Below are positions 4,096 through 12,217 of a stretch of 33,774 nt of DNA, piece after piece. The first letter of the stretch is position 1. Every line of letters begins with the position of its first letter. Both the position numbers and the translations under genes were made by a program. Source of the stretch: Acidimicrobiia bacterium (GTDB lineage: Bacteria > Actinomycetota > Acidimicrobiia > Acidimicrobiales > Aldehydirespiratoraceae); assembly GCA_030432715.1 (NCBI GenBank), contig JAUIML010000010.1, forward strand, positions 1-33,774, given 5' to 3'. The notes under the pieces are model-generated. The model worked only from the letters and a program-made list of their open reading frames with translations, was not told where the DNA came from and ran no database searches.

Positions 4096-5397
4096 GTGTC
4101 TGCCCCGTCGTCGTCGCCCGAGCCGTCCCCCGAGACCGTGCCCTCCGCGCGGCCACCGTCGGTCGATGCGCTGGCGCGCTCGCTCGCCGACACCGGACTC
4201 CCCCATCCCCTCCTCGTCGACGTGGCCCGTGCCGCCATCGCCGACGGCGACCCGGATTCGGCCCGCGAACGGGCCGTGCAGCGCTCGCGACAGATGCTCA
4301 CTCCGGTCATCAACGCGACGGGAACGCTCCTGCACACCAACCTGGGTCGAGCGCCGCTGGCCTGGGAGCAGGCCGCCACCTACTCGAATCTCGAACTCGA
4401 TCTGACGACCGGCGAACGCGGATCGAGGATGGCGACGGCACCGGCCCTGATCGCCCGGGCCTGCGGTGCCGAAGCGGCCATCGCCGTCAACAACTGTGCC
4501 GCCGCATTGATGCTCGCGCTGGCCGGGCTGGCCGAGGGCAGGGGTGTGGTCGTGTCGCGCGGCGAACTCGTCGAGATCGGCGGGGGCTTCCGGGTGCCCG
4601 AGGTGATGGAGCGATCCGGGGCGCGACTGATCGAGGTCGGCACGACCAACCGCACCCGGCTGGCCGACTTCCAGCGCGCCGTCGACGAACACGGCGCCGA
4701 CGCGGCGGTCCTGCTCCAGGTCCACCAGTCGAACTACAAGATCGTCGGGTTCACCGAGGCAGTGCGCACCGCCGAGCTCGCGTCGATCGACCGCCCGCTC
4801 GTCGCCGACATCGGTTCGGGCCTCATCGACTCGCGCTGCGGCTGGCTCCGCTCCGGACCGCCCGGTTGGCTGGCCGACGAGCCCGCGGCCCGCCAGACCC
4901 TCGACGCCGGCGCCGACCTCGTCACCTTCTCGGGCGACAAGCTGTTCGGCGGCCCTCAGGCCGGCATCATCGCCGGCCGAGCCGATCTCGTCGCCATCAT
5001 CTCCCGGCACCCGCTGGCCCGGGCCCTCCGCCCCGGATCGCTCGTCCTCGGCGCGCTACAGGCGACCGCCCTCGCCTACCTCGACGGCGACGGCGACGCG
5101 ATCCCGTTCTGGCGGATGGCGGCCCTCTCGGTCGACAGCCTCCGGACGCGGGCGGAGCGCCTCGGCGTGGGCACACCGGTCGACACCGAGTCGACCCCGG
5201 GCGGTGGCACCCTTCCCGAGGTCGCGATTCCCTCCGCCGGCGTCGCGGTCGACGGCGACCATCGGGCCGCCCTCCGTCGACGTGCCCGCCCCCTCGTGGC
5301 GAGGGTGGTCGACGGTCGCACCGTTCTCGACCTGCGCACCGTCGACCCGGGCGACGACCTCGAGGTCGCCGACGCCCTCCGCGACGTGCTCGGCTGA
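4096..5397 (+). CDS. selA: L-seryl-tRNA(Sec) selenium transferase
   Basis: PLP-dependent cytosolic enzyme that converts seryl-tRNA(Sec) to selenocysteinyl-tRNA(Sec) using selenophosphate. At 433 aa it is close to the usual length. Recognisable blocks are the N-terminal INATGTLLHTNLGRAPL, the AAIAVNNCAAALMLAL cofactor region, VADIGSGL (about 237), and the Schiff-base lysine K282 in TFSGDKLFGGPQAG. GTG at 4096 is chosen because it follows the -10 element and agrees with the family's N-terminus. selB follows after 15 nt with no promoter of its own, so the two are almost certainly co-transcribed. Neither selD nor tRNA-Sec is visible in the window. Confidence 0.96.
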   Translation: MSAPSSSPEPSPETVPSARPPSVDALARSLADTGLPHPLLVDVARAAIADGDPDSARERAVQRSRQMLTPVINATGTLLHTNLGRAPLAWEQAATYSNLELDLTTGERGSRMATAPALIARACGAEAAIAVNNCAAALMLALAGLAEGRGVVVSRGELVEIGGGFRVPEVMERSGARLIEVGTTNRTRLADFQRAVDEHGADAAVLLQVHQSNYKIVGFTEAVRTAELASIDRPLVADIGSGLIDSRCGWLRSGPPGWLADEPAARQTLDAGADLVTFSGDKLFGGPQAGIIAGRADLVAIISRHPLARALRPGSLVLGALQATALAYLDGDGDAIPFWRMAALSVDSLRTRAERLGVGTPVDTESTPGGGTLPEVAIPSAGVAVDGDHRAALRRRARPLVARVVDGRTVLDLRTVDPGDDLEVADALRDVLG

Positions 5398-5412
5398 GCG
5401 GGCGGGCCGAGT

Positions 5413-7134
5413 ATGCACGTCGTCGCCACCGCCGGCCATGTCGATCACGGCAAGTCGACCCTCGTCAAGGCCCTCACGGGCACCGACCCCGACCGGCTGG
5501 CCGAGGAGAAGGAGCGGGGTCTCACGATCGACCTGGGCTTCGCGTCCGCGGCACTGCCGTCGGGGCGAGGCGTGGCCTTCATCGACGTTCCCGGCCATGT
5601 GCGCTTCCTCAAGAACATGCTCGCCGGCGTCGGCAGCGTCGACGCCTGCATCTTCGTGGTCGCCGCGACCGAGGGCTGGAAACCGCAGTCGGAGGAGCAC
5701 CTCCGCATCCTCTCCCTGCTCGGCATCCGCCACGGCCTGGTCGCCCTCACGAAGGTGGGGCTGGCCGACGACGAACTGCGCGAACTCGCCGCCATGGAGA
5801 TCGCCGACCGGGTGGAGGGCACCTTCCTCGAGAACGCACCGATCGTCGAGGTCGACGCCCTCGAGGGTCATGGCGTCGACGCCCTCCGGACGGCGCTCGA
5901 CGCACTGCTCGAGGCAACGCCGACGGCCACCGACCACAAGCGGCCCCGGCTGTGGATCGATCGCGTCTTCGCGGCGAAGGGCTCCGGCACGGTCGTCACC
6001 GGCACCCTCACGGGCGGGCTCATCCGGGTCGACGACGAGCTCGACGCACTGCCCGCGGGCCGTACGGTCCGGGTCCGCGCCCTGCAGAGCCTCCACGCCG
6101 AACGCACGAAGGTCGGCCCGGGCAACCGGGTCGCGGTCAACCTGACCGGCATGAGCCACGACGAACTCCGGCGAGGCGACGTGCTCGTCGCCGCCCACCA
6201 GTGGCACGTCACCGATCGATTCGACGGCCACATCGAGGTCCTCGCCGCCCTCGATCACCCGGTCACCCGACGCGGGGCCCACGTGGCCTACATCGGCTCC
6301 GGGGAACATCCGGCCCGCGTGCGGGTGCTCGGGCCCGCCGAGATCCCGCCCGGCGCCGGTGGCGCGGTTCGCGTCCATCTGCCGGTGGCGCTCCCGTTGC
6401 TCCCCGGCGATCGCTTCATCCTCCGCGAGTCGGGGCGTGGTGAAACGCTCGGCGGCGGCGAGATCCTCGACGTCGACCCGCTCGTCGCCGCCTCCCGAGC
6501 CGTGCCCGACCGGTCGGTCGATCGGGTGATCGCCGAGCGCGGGCGGGTCGACGTCGACCACCTGCTCCGGCTGACCGGCGAACGGCGCGACCCCGACGTC
6601 GGGACGTGGGCGGTCGCACCGGAGACCCTCGCCGAGACCCGGACCGCGCTCGACGCGGCGATCGTCGCCGCCGGCCCCCTCGGCCTCGACCTGGCCGGAC
6701 TCGACGACTTCGAGCGGGCGGTGCTCGAGACGATGGACGGTTTCCACGTCGAGGGAGGTCACGCGCGCGTCGCCGACGCGGTCGACCCGCTCGCCGACCA
6801 CCCCTACGTCGCCCTGCTGGAGGCGTCGCCCTTCGACCCGCCCCAACCCACCGACATCGATCGGGCCGAACTCCGAGAGCTCGTCCGCCGGGGCGATGTG
6901 GTGGAGGCCGACGGCGTCTACTTCGCCGCGTCGGCCGTCGACGCCGCGGCGCGCCTCGTGGCCGGTCTCCTCGCCGCCGAACCGGACGGCGTCACGGTGT
7001 CGACCATCCGGGATGCGTGGGGGACCTCACGCAAGTACGCGATCCCCCTGGTCACCCACCTCGACGAGAACGGGATCACCCGTCGGCGCGACGACCTGCG
7101 AATCGCCGGTCCGCGGCTGCCCGCGCTCGACTGA
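5413..7134 (+). CDS. selB: Selenocysteine-specific elongation factor SelB
   Basis: GTPase (573 aa) that brings selenocysteinyl-tRNA to UGA codons marked by a SECIS hairpin. G1 GHVDHGKST (residues 8-16), effector region EKERGLTIDLGF, and G3 DVPGH (about 58) are canonical. The G4 motif, normally (N/T)KxD, reads TKVG: the Asp that recognises guanine is replaced by Gly. Domains II and III follow (GSGTVVTGTL at about 195), then the C-terminal winged-helix domains ending in TSRKYAIPLVTHLDENG, which in the family bind the SECIS RNA. Translationally close to selA. It converges on whiB with only 3 nt between the stop codons, leaving no room for a conventional terminator. Confidence 0.95.
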   Translation: MHVVATAGHVDHGKSTLVKALTGTDPDRLAEEKERGLTIDLGFASAALPSGRGVAFIDVPGHVRFLKNMLAGVGSVDACIFVVAATEGWKPQSEEHLRILSLLGIRHGLVALTKVGLADDELRELAAMEIADRVEGTFLENAPIVEVDALEGHGVDALRTALDALLEATPTATDHKRPRLWIDRVFAAKGSGTVVTGTLTGGLIRVDDELDALPAGRTVRVRALQSLHAERTKVGPGNRVAVNLTGMSHDELRRGDVLVAAHQWHVTDRFDGHIEVLAALDHPVTRRGAHVAYIGSGEHPARVRVLGPAEIPPGAGGAVRVHLPVALPLLPGDRFILRESGRGETLGGGEILDVDPLVAASRAVPDRSVDRVIAERGRVDVDHLLRLTGERRDPDVGTWAVAPETLAETRTALDAAIVAAGPLGLDLAGLDDFERAVLETMDGFHVEGGHARVADAVDPLADHPYVALLEASPFDPPQPTDIDRAELRELVRRGDVVEADGVYFAASAVDAAARLVAGLLAAEPDGVTVSTIRDAWGTSRKYAIPLVTHLDENGITRRRDDLRIAGPRLPALD

Positions 7135-7137
7135 TCC

Positions 7138-7437
7138 TCAGACGGTGAGCAGGTCGCGACGTTCGCTCTCGCTCAACCCGCCCCAGATGCCGTGTTGCTC
7201 CCGGATCGTGAGGGCGTAGGAAAGGCAGTCGTCGCGAACGGAGCAGGTCTCACAGATCGCCTTCGCGTTCCGTTCGCGGCAGCGCTTCTCGTCGCGCCGT
7301 TCCGGACTCGCCGGGGGAAAGAACACGGCAGCCTGAGGACCCCTGCACGCCGCTTTGAGCTGCCACTCGGACGATCCGCTGCGCGTTCGAGCCTCCCGCA
7401 TTCCCGTGTCCCGCATCCCCGTCTCCCGCAATGCCAT
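7138..7437 (-). CDS. whiB: WhiB-family Fe-S transcription regulator
   Basis: A 99-aa WhiB-like protein. Four cluster cysteines C31, C62, C65 and C71 follow the family spacing (C...CxxCx5C). The GIWGG turn (83-87) precedes a basic C-terminal helix SERRDLL used for DNA contact. An additional Cys (C53) lies outside the motif. The first 15 residues contain a short repeat (RETGM, RDTGM, REA). Start ATG at 7437 is chosen because AAGGGGAG lies about 6 nt upstream. WhiB proteins bind [4Fe-4S], sense redox or NO, and usually act with a sigma factor. Adjacency to nfeD and the ArsA-like pair recalls Mycobacterium whiB4 next to Rv3679-Rv3680, so a WhiB4-like redox role is possible but orthology is not shown. 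Confidence 0.95.
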   Translation of the reverse strand: MALRETGMRDTGMREARTRSGSSEWQLKAACRGPQAAVFFPPASPERRDEKRCRERNAKAICETCSVRDDCLSYALTIREQHGIWGGLSESERRDLLTV

Positions 7438-7486
7438 GTCCGCTCCCCTTCTCCCTCGTTGGCTTAGCGGACCTGAGACGGATGTC

Positions 7487-7507
7487 ACAACCGCGCTCCG
7501 CGGTTGT
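7487..7507. promoter_or_regulatory. Perfect inverted repeat upstream of whiB
   Basis: Arms ACAACCGCG (7487-7495) and CGCGGTTGT (7499-7507) are separated by CTC. It sits 50 nt before the whiB start and after the nfeD stop. It could be an operator, a 5'-UTR hairpin of whiB, or a terminator of nfeD, although no U run follows on the minus strand. Confidence 0.5.
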
Positions 7508-7560
7508 TTCCCGAAACCGAACGCCGCGCGTGAGATTTTGCGGGTATTGCTCGATCTTGT

Positions 7561-7581
7561 GCCGATATTTGTCGTATCGGC
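7561..7581. promoter_or_regulatory. Palindrome GCCGATA-N7-TATCGGC in whiB upstream region
   Basis: Perfect 7-bp arms at 7561-7567 and 7575-7581 in an unusually A/T-rich patch, 124 nt upstream of the whiB start. The shape (21 bp, two half-sites) suits a dimeric transcription factor. The factor is unknown. Confidence 0.4.
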
Positions 7582-7646
7582 CACTGTTTCCGGTGCCTTG
7601 ACGGCGGATCGATCCGTCGGTAATCCGGCAGCACCCGGCCGAGCCC

Positions 7647-9014
7647 TCAGGTCTCGTCGGCCGCTTGGAGCTCGTCGGGGTCGGCGGTGCCGGGGCGCAT
7701 CTCCCGATAGTCGCGGGCGCCGCCCTCCTCCGGCTCGATCTCGAGCCACAGGCCCTCGATGGCCACGACCCGCACGGGATCACCGGCCAGGATCGGCGTG
7801 GTGCGATTGACCATCGCCCGCCACGGCGCGCCGTCGATCATCACGATGCCGTCCTTCTTCACCTCGGTGGCGGCCTCACCCATCATGCCGATCATCCACT
7901 CGCGACCGATGGTCGGGGTGCCGAAACGGGTCCGGATCATCGACGGCATGCCGTTCATCATCGACAGCGCCACGCCGATGATGCCCACGAGAAGGGTGAT
8001 CCACGAGATCGAGAAGCCGTCGTACAGGAAGAGCGACCCGATGACCAGACAAACGGTGGCGATGGCCGACCAGGCCCGGGGCACGCCGGTCTGCACGTCC
8101 ACCGCGTAGCCGAGCATCGCGATCACCAGCAACGCCAAGGCCCAGGTGCGCGTGGGCAGGACCTCGAGGCCGTAGCAGCCGAGCACGAAACAGACCGCAC
8201 CGACGACGCCGGCGATGCCGACCCCAGCGGTGTAGAACTCGAAGATCAGCAGTGACACCCCGATGAGGAAGAGCAGATAGGCCATCGCCGGACTGGCCAC
8301 ACTGTGCATCCAGCCCTTGAAGAGCGACAGCTTCCGCAGCCGGACCGGCGAGGCGATCTCTCGGACCGATTCTCCACTCGAGGTGTCGATGACGCTGTCG
8401 AACCCGGGGAGTTCATCGCCGGGCTGGGGGCCGAGGGCGAAGAGGGCGAGCGTGGGCGACTCGTGCTCGATGAGTCCGAGCTCGATCGCGTCGAGATCGT
8501 TGATCGTGGTGCTCTCGAGGCCCGACAACAGGTCGGCGACCTCGGGGTCGAGGAACTCGGCCACCACGAGCTGCCCCGTGTTGCCGAAGGTCGCGAACGA
8601 GGCGATCCCCATCTCGTCGGTGACGGCCATGAGCTGTGCGATCCCGCCTTCGGCGGTGGCCCCGCTGGGCCCGACCCACCCGTAGACGGGCACGGTGGCC
8701 TCGTGGACCCGGCGGGCCAGTTCGATGAGCCGCGCATCGTCGACGACGGTGGCGGAGCTGTTGACCTGGAGGATGACGCCGCCGGAGTCCTCCTCCTCGG
8801 CCCGCGCGATCGACTGCTCGATGAAGTCGGCGACGATCTCGTCGACGAACCCCGACACCTGCACGATGTCGAACACGGCGGAGCCGCTCGTGGTGTCGAT
8901 GGTCTCCTGCGTGATCGCGCCCTGCGCACCGGCGGGCGGCGAGCACGCGAGAATCCCGACCGCAAGGCCGATCATGGTGAGCGCTAGCGTGAGGCGGCGA
9001 CGCACGTCGCGCAT
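7647..9014 (-). CDS. nfeD: NfeD-family membrane protein with protease-like N-terminal domain
   Basis: A 455-aa protein built like long NfeD proteins: signal peptide (about 1-30), ClpP/SppA-like periplasmic domain (about 45-220), a block of membrane segments (about 255-375), and a C-terminal OB-fold NfeDC domain around GEAATEVKKDGIVMIDGAPWRAM. Family members with an active protease carry a catalytic Ser in GxxAxSAG. Here that stretch is GATAEGG (118-124), with Gly at the Ser position, so proteolysis is doubtful. ATG at 9014 is preferred to the ATG at 9056 because it starts the signal peptide and avoids overlap with the divergent ATPase gene at 9032; only 17 nt separate the two starts. NfeD proteins usually partner stomatin/flotillin proteins; none is seen here. 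Confidence 0.88.
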   Translation of the reverse strand: MRDVRRRLTLALTMIGLAVGILACSPPAGAQGAITQETIDTTSGSAVFDIVQVSGFVDEIVADFIEQSIARAEEEDSGGVILQVNSSATVVDDARLIELARRVHEATVPVYGWVGPSGATAEGGIAQLMAVTDEMGIASFATFGNTGQLVVAEFLDPEVADLLSGLESTTINDLDAIELGLIEHESPTLALFALGPQPGDELPGFDSVIDTSSGESVREIASPVRLRKLSLFKGWMHSVASPAMAYLLFLIGVSLLIFEFYTAGVGIAGVVGAVCFVLGCYGLEVLPTRTWALALLVIAMLGYAVDVQTGVPRAWSAIATVCLVIGSLFLYDGFSISWITLLVGIIGVALSMMNGMPSMIRTRFGTPTIGREWMIGMMGEAATEVKKDGIVMIDGAPWRAMVNRTTPILAGDPVRVVAIEGLWLEIEPEEGGARDYREMRPGTADPDELQAADET

Positions 9015-11089: not shown

Positions 11090-11443
11090 TCAGGCGTCGG
11101 GGTCTTCGTCGAGCGCCTCGACCGCAGCCGCGTAGTCGTCCTTGACGGGCACGATGCGATCGAAGCCGGTCGTGTGGAGCAGCTTGGTGATCGCCTCGCG
11201 ATCGCTGTAGATCACCACGCGGCCCTCGCTCTCGCGGATACGGCGGATCCCGCCGATCAGTGCGCCGAGGCCGGCGGAGTCCATGAACTGCACGCCGGAG
11301 AGGTTGACGACGACCCGGGGCTCCTCGGCCATCTCGGCGAAGGCCTCGCGGAACTGCGCAACGCTGTAGGCATCGAGCTCGCCCGCCGGGCAGAGATCGA
11401 TCTGGGATCCGTCGTCGGACCGGTTTGCTTGGATCTCGAGCAC
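11090..11443 (-). CDS. STAS-domain anti-anti-sigma factor
   Basis: A 117-aa single-domain STAS protein of the SpoIIAA/RsbV type. The GELDAYSVAQFREAF strand-helix, VNLSGVQFMDSAGLGAL (phosphoacceptor Ser56 in DSAG) and VVIYSDREAITKLLHTTGF match the family. Such proteins release a sigma factor by binding an anti-sigma kinase; no RsbW/SpoIIAB-type kinase or sigma gene lies in the window. GTG at 11443 is chosen because the domain begins there and a TACCAT -10 element lies 6 nt upstream. It is divergent from the receiver-domain gene, with a 145-nt region holding the tandem repeat between them. The acidic C-terminal tail (EALDEDPDA) is short. Confidence 0.9.
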   Translation of the reverse strand: MLEIQANRSDDGSQIDLCPAGELDAYSVAQFREAFAEMAEEPRVVVNLSGVQFMDSAGLGALIGGIRRIRESEGRVVIYSDREAITKLLHTTGFDRIVPVKDDYAAAVEALDEDPDA

Positions 11444-11449
11444 CGGCGC

Positions 11450-11455
11450 ATGGTA
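11450..11455 (-). promoter_or_regulatory. -10 element of STAS gene (TACCAT)
   Basis: TACCAT on the minus strand, 6 nt before the GTG at 11443. Predicts a leaderless transcript. Confidence 0.5.
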
Positions 11456-11481
11456 ACCCCAACCGTCGCCCGCCCACACGC

Positions 11482-11569
11482 GGGTGCCGTGCCTGCACCC
11501 CGCGAGCATGGTGCCCCCACCCGACGAACATGGTGCCCCCACCCCGTGAGCATGGTGCCCGCACCACCG
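11482..11569. repeat. 22-bp-period tandem repeat in divergent promoter region
   Basis: Three 18-nt near-identical blocks begin at 11504, 11526 and 11548, an exact 22-nt period. A decayed fourth unit begins at 11482 and keeps mainly GTGCC and CACC. Each unit carries GAGCATGGTG or GAACATGGTG followed by CCC(C/G)CACC, and the third contains the inverted repeat GGTGC-CC-GCACC. The array ends 6 nt before the -10 hexamer of the receiver gene. Two helical turns per unit place every copy on the same DNA face, which suggests an operator array; a short mobile or REP-like repeat is the alternative. Confidence 0.8.
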
Positions 11570-11574
11570 CCGTG

Positions 11575-11580
11575 TACGAT
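11575..11580 (+). promoter_or_regulatory. -10 element of receiver-domain gene (TACGAT)
   Basis: TACGAT preceded by TG (extended -10 form), 8 nt before the GTG at 11589. Confidence 0.5.
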
Positions 11581-11588
11581 TTCGCCTC

Positions 11589-11969
11589 GTGACGGACATT
11601 CTTCTCGCCAGCGACGCCGACTGGCTCGTCGACGACGTCGAGGCTGCGCTGGGTGGGGCCCACGTGATCCACCGCGTGCGGGCCGGGGTCGACGTGGTTC
11701 CGGCCATCCAGCAGGTCGACCCCGCCCTCGTGCTGCTCGACCTCCAGATCGGCAACATGGGCGGCGTGGCCGCCTGCATCGCCGTGAAACAGCGGGTCAC
11801 CATGGGTGATCTCGCCGACCGCCCGGTGCTGCTCCTGCTCGATCGCGAAGTCGATTCCTTCCTGGCCAAGGAGGCCGACGCCGACGGCTGGTTGGTCAAG
11901 CCGCTCGACGCCTTCGGCACGCTGCGAGCCGTCGAGGCCGCCCTCTCCGGCGAGACCGTCACCCACTGA
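11589..11969 (+). CDS. Orphan receiver-domain protein, atypical active site
   Basis: A 126-aa stand-alone CheY-like receiver without an output domain. The phosphoacceptor D51 (VLLDLQ) and the conserved lysine K104 (GWLVKPL) are present, but the N-terminal acidic pair is reduced to SD (S8-D9) and the switch Thr/Ser at the end of strand 4 is D85 (LLLLDREVD). Phosphorylation is possible but output switching may differ. It starts with GTG at 11589 after a TACGAT -10 element. It is divergent from the STAS gene, which suggests the pair belongs to one signalling circuit, although nothing in the window shows the kinase or target. A tRNA-Pro gene follows after 61 nt. Confidence 0.82.
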   Translation: MTDILLASDADWLVDDVEAALGGAHVIHRVRAGVDVVPAIQQVDPALVLLDLQIGNMGGVAACIAVKQRVTMGDLADRPVLLLLDREVDSFLAKEADADGWLVKPLDAFGTLRAVEAALSGETVTH

Positions 11970-12030: not shown

Positions 12031-12104
12031 CGGGCAGTGGCGCAGGTTGGTAGCGCGCCTCGTTCGGGACGAGGAGGTCGTGGGTTCAAATCCCGCCTGC
12101 CCGA
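12031..12104 (+). tRNA. tRNA-Pro (anticodon CGG)
   Basis: A 74-nt cloverleaf read by eye. Acceptor CGGGCAG pairs with CTGCCCG (12097-12103), followed by discriminator A12104. The D-arm contains GGTTGGTAGC, the anticodon stem is CCTCG/CGAGG with loop TTCGGGA (anticodon CGG), and the T-arm loop is TTCAAAT. No CCA is encoded, so it must be added post-transcriptionally. Composition drops immediately downstream. Confidence 0.96.
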
Positions 12105-12217
12105 CTCACCCCAAGTCGAATGCCGGCCACCCACGCGGCTGGGCACGTCAGGTTTCCGCTCTCAGCCGAAACGGGCCAGCGACGCTCTGCGTCGATCGCA
12201 ATCTCCGTGCGAAGGGA

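Follow-up and report, generated by a model that had tools for sequence, protein, structure and literature searches.

A 22-bp tandem array within a predicted divergent promoter region between STAS and receiver genes of an Acidimicrobiia bacterium

The window analysed here, a 33,774-nucleotide stretch of DNA from an Acidimicrobiia bacterium (contig JAUIML010000010.1), contains a 22-bp tandem array of about 3.5 units in the gap between divergent genes for a STAS-domain protein and a receiver-domain protein. In our assessment, this array is probably the product of a lineage-specific tandem duplication within a conserved divergent promoter region, the duplicated segment including the box that belongs to the receiver promoter. 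Local promoter repeats are already known from other bacteria. The more interesting part of the result is the conserved and nearly locus-specific divergent promoter signature that accompanies a gene pair found across an entire order.

Structure and distribution of the array

Tandem Repeats Finder reports 3.7 copies of GTGCCCCCACCCCGCGAGCATG at 11489-11570 with a score of 106, the highest in the window, whereas the maximum across 60 dinucleotide shuffles of the window was 73. An earlier note, made from the letters of the window, had placed a 22-bp-period array between the divergent STAS and receiver genes at 11482-11569, and that description is borne out. Alignment of the units, to which no strand is assigned, divides the array into 11489-11510, 11511-11532, 11533-11554 and a partial copy beginning at 11555 and ending at 11565 or 11570. 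Viewed as 18-nt blocks (GARCATGGTGCCCNCACC), the copies lie at 11504-11521, 11526-11543 and 11548-11565 with a spacing of exactly 22 nt, and a weaker, decayed fourth block (GGGTGCCGTGCCTGCACC) lies at 11482-11499. The three full units differ from one another at 3 to 5 of 22 bases, the first (11489-11510) differing from the next two at 5/22 and 3/22. In the Tandem Repeats Finder register that first unit is full, so the earlier picture of three blocks and a decayed fourth, though correct as to the exact spacing, depends in part on the register chosen.

Variable columns (6, 7, 13, 14, 15 and 18 of the 22-bp unit) are scattered along its length, a pattern such as neutral drift would leave. CATG and GTGCC...CACC are invariant across the copies, which would equally fit selection preserving binding sites. 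Each unit holds an inverted repeat of 4 to 5 bp, as had been noted before, although its recurrence from copy to copy is no independent evidence, and the gap of every congener likewise contains 12-mers in which four of five pairs form. The final base of the array lies 4-5 nt upstream of the predicted receiver -10 (11575-11580), close to the 6 nt given previously, and the array is thus promoter-proximal.

The three exact matches to the unit core in the 3.68 Mb of this organism's genome all fall within the array. A two-unit pattern, with 3 mismatches allowed, found no match in 60 relatives (61 genomes were searched, including this one). Six congeners carry the same divergent gene pair, and in none of them does the gap between the two genes contain a tandem array. 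These gaps measure 87, 89, 89, 90, 90 and 102 nt, compared with 145 nt here, an excess of 43-58 nt; subtraction of the 89-90 nt length leaves 55-56 nt, or 2.5 times 22. Copy number therefore differs between species, from about 3.5 in the single genome of this species to no array in the six congeners. Judged by gap lengths, the array is most likely specific to this lineage, having arisen after its split from the known congeners.

The background against which such an array must be read was estimated in two ways. Five of 162 other distinct STAS/receiver gaps (about 3%), a set that includes 100 further loci with a STAS match, contain tandem arrays in which a unit recurs at least 2.5 times; the units are unrelated and their periods are 11, 11, 12, 13 and 15. 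The 22-bp array outscores those of every other STAS/receiver gap examined. Other, mostly non-coding arrays occur elsewhere in the same genome, for example 3.9 copies of a 29-bp unit, as estimated from a 567-kb sample that includes the window. Arrays of this type are consequently not exceptional here. Independent arrays with an 11-bp unit precede the receiver gene in two distant relatives, namely L110 (the same gap as L226), with 3.8-5.1 copies of TGCGATGTTCC, and L131, with 2.8 copies of TCTCGCTGTCC; each stops about 27-33 nt short of the receiver -10. The idea that these arrays suggested, of recurrent helical-period arrays at the receiver promoter, was dropped on account of the periods of 12, 13 and 15 in the other gaps.

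The divergent promoters and their genes

The rightward gene (11589-11969, + strand, GTG start) encodes a stand-alone, divergent receiver-domain protein of 126 aa, which matches Pfam Response_reg with an E-value of 5.5e-05, below the Pfam cut-off; homologues were present in 60/60 relatives searched. By eye, the receiver is atypical in having Asp (LLLLDRE) at the conserved Thr/Ser position, with the Asp and Lys sites kept. The leftward gene (11090-11443, - strand, GTG start) encodes a 117-aa STAS-domain protein of the anti-sigma-factor-antagonist type (Pfam STAS, E-value 4.1e-17). This divergent pair is present across the order Acidimicrobiales.

Several features of the surrounding region may be recorded. 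A tRNA-Pro(CGG) gene lies 3' of the receiver gene at 12031-12105, and the same tRNA-like sequence adjoins the receiver gene in many relatives, suggesting a conserved neighbourhood. Homologues of selA and selB stand side by side at 4096-7134 of the window, which suggests selenocysteine use in this genome. At 7138-7749 (- strand) lies a WhiB-domain ORF of uncertain start, and 15/30-bp tandem repeats (7393-7455) fall within its long N-terminal extension.

Both sides of the gap display the arrangement expected of leaderless genes. In bacteria, and above all in Actinobacteria, leaderless genes are marked by a TANNNT motif about 12 nt ahead of the start codon (PMC3160421; also PMC3898074). On the receiver side, a predicted -10, TACGAT (11575-11580, + strand), stands 8 nt before the GTG start; on the STAS side, a predicted -10, TACCAT (11450-11455, - strand), stands 6 nt before its own GTG. 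Among 26 distinct family-level loci, which are related so that the counts given here and below are not independent, the receiver -10 conforms to TANNNT in 26/26 and reads TACGAT or TACCAT in 23, with a gap to the start of 6-8 nt. The STAS -10 reads TACCAT or TACGAT in 24 of the 26, and a 6-nt gap to the start is likewise seen in 24/26.

Upstream of each -10 is a second conserved element. The STAS-side box, CGTGT (11476-11480, - strand), lies 25 nt upstream of its -10, and a CRTGK box occupies that offset in 18/26 of the distinct loci; a receiver-side CRTGK box is found 24 or 25 nt from the -10 in 17/26. When the pattern CRTGK-N20-TACSAT-N4-9-GTG was sought in seven congeneric genomes, 11/11 matches fell at the STAS/receiver locus and there were zero control matches. 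The corresponding pattern CRTGK-N19-TACSAT-N4-9-RTG has a single match in this organism's genome, at the proximal copy of the array, and also matches some unrelated places in 51 genomes of the family. A general promoter consensus was considered and rejected, as the other leaderless-like starts sampled in 567 kb of this genome do not feature CRTGK at -25. Taken together, the conserved element would appear to be a divergent promoter pair, each half composed of a TACSAT -10 and a CRTGK box and predicted to be of the leaderless type. An RNA element was set aside on two grounds: the tRNA gives the only Rfam match, and neither mRNA should include the array, which is flanked by the two predicted start sites.

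Compared with the leaderless promoters described in Actinobacteria (PMC3160421, PMC3898074), the predicted pair is similar in that TACSAT precedes each of the two start codons by 6-8 nt. It differs in its CRTGK box, which is nearly locus-specific and lies 24-25 nt upstream of the -10, the promoters of M. tuberculosis being without a conserved -35 motif. Our search of the literature found no account of leaderless promoters in Acidimicrobiales.

Origin of the array and competing explanations

Within the array, CATGG boxes recur on the + strand at 11551-11555, 11529-11533 and 11507-11511, that is, 24, 46 and 68 nt upstream of the receiver -10, and the proximal one of these occupies the family-conserved position of the single box. 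Homology between the unit and the single element of the congeners rests on a match of 5 to 7 bases together with position, and an unguided alignment with the congeners matched their box to a different part of the array.

The events that we consider probable may be outlined as follows. The ancestral gap would have been about 90 nt long, with two back-to-back leaderless-type promoters in which a CRTGK box preceded each TACSAT -10 by 24-25 nt. A 22-bp stretch carrying the receiver-side CATGG would then have been duplicated to about 3.5 copies. Replication slippage is the most likely mechanism, and the gap would have grown by about 55 nt, displacing the STAS promoter some 2.5 repeats farther away. 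The proximal copy, still at -24, would probably continue to serve as the -35-region element of the receiver promoter, while the extra boxes at -46 and -68 may be inert or may modestly tune expression. Tandem amplification of a segment containing the box yields exact 22-nt spacing, so the spacing alone is no evidence for helical phasing.

Spacing was nonetheless the basis on which cooperative protein binding in two-turn phase had been proposed, and it leads to the explanation that survives best among the alternatives: an amplified operator, in which the CATGG boxes are activator or repressor sites and helically phased copies have been selected for cooperative binding that controls one or both genes. 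We regard it as possible though unlikely. Within the genus the box of the unit is almost confined to this locus and keeps a conserved, fixed offset on either side of the gap, all copies are spaced exactly 22 nt apart and CATG is invariant; yet the spacing is equally the outcome of tandem duplication alone, all six congeners manage without an array, the arrays in homologous gaps have periods of 11, 12, 13 and 15 rather than helical multiples only, and no candidate regulator gene was identified. What the search of the genome and its relatives retained of the original proposal is the confinement of the unit to this locus. Array and phase are not conserved, conservation extending to a single CRTGK box with its TACSAT -10 on each side, and the comparative data therefore give no support to cooperative binding in two-turn phase.

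A bolder extension, which strikes us as quite improbable, would read CRTGK-N19/20-TACSAT as the mark of a dedicated and undescribed regulator or sigma factor driving both genes throughout the family, with the array as its amplified, copy-number-tunable site.

Activation by a SARP-type (OmpR-like) protein, through 22-bp direct repeats ending near a -10 as in the antibiotic-regulatory promoters of Streptomyces, appears very unlikely. In SARP targets, direct repeats recur at intervals of 11 or 22 bp and the 3' repeat lies 8 bp from the -10 (PMC10936776). The array resembles these sites in its spacings of 22 and 22, which agree with the direct-repeat rule, and in the nearness of its last repeat to the -10, with 9 nt between 11565 and 11575, a distance measured from the end of a block and not from a known bound heptamer. 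The genome encodes four BTAD-domain proteins, although such proteins are common in the genus and their presence here discriminates little. Unlike SARP sites (PMC10936776), the repeats are absent from the orthologous promoters, including those of congeners that themselves possess SARP-like or BTAD proteins, and no SARP gene adjoins the locus among the genes tested.

Membership of a dispersed, REP/MITE-like repeat family, formerly the main alternative and recommended by the small inverted repeat in every unit, is now scarcely credible: the only three exact copies in 3.68 Mb are those at this locus, the 60 relatives lack the two-unit pattern, and the many scattered copies that such a family entails are missing from the assembled genome (83% complete), to which the refutation applies.

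Relation to known promoter repeats

Of the explanations weighed, lineage-specific duplication within the divergent promoter region is the one that we prefer, and in its light the array is best classed, tentatively, as a promoter tandem repeat whose extra copies may affect expression. A naturally amplified promoter element accompanied by six unamplified sister promoters makes the consequences of copying a -35-region box directly testable.

The closest parallels come from M. tuberculosis, in which tandem repeats in promoters, of strain-variable copy number, lie upstream of leaderless promoters (PMC12817950). The present array differs from the repeat of the dop promoter, the unit of which is 57 bp, in its 22-bp unit and in its location in a divergent promoter region, and its copy number has been compared between species only. 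It resembles the promoter repeats of dop, lpdA and cysG (PMC12817950) in being composed of head-to-tail, promoter-proximal copies in an actinobacterium; the lpdA and cysG repeats, moreover, are situated upstream of leaderless promoters, and copy number differs between lineages (PMC12817950).
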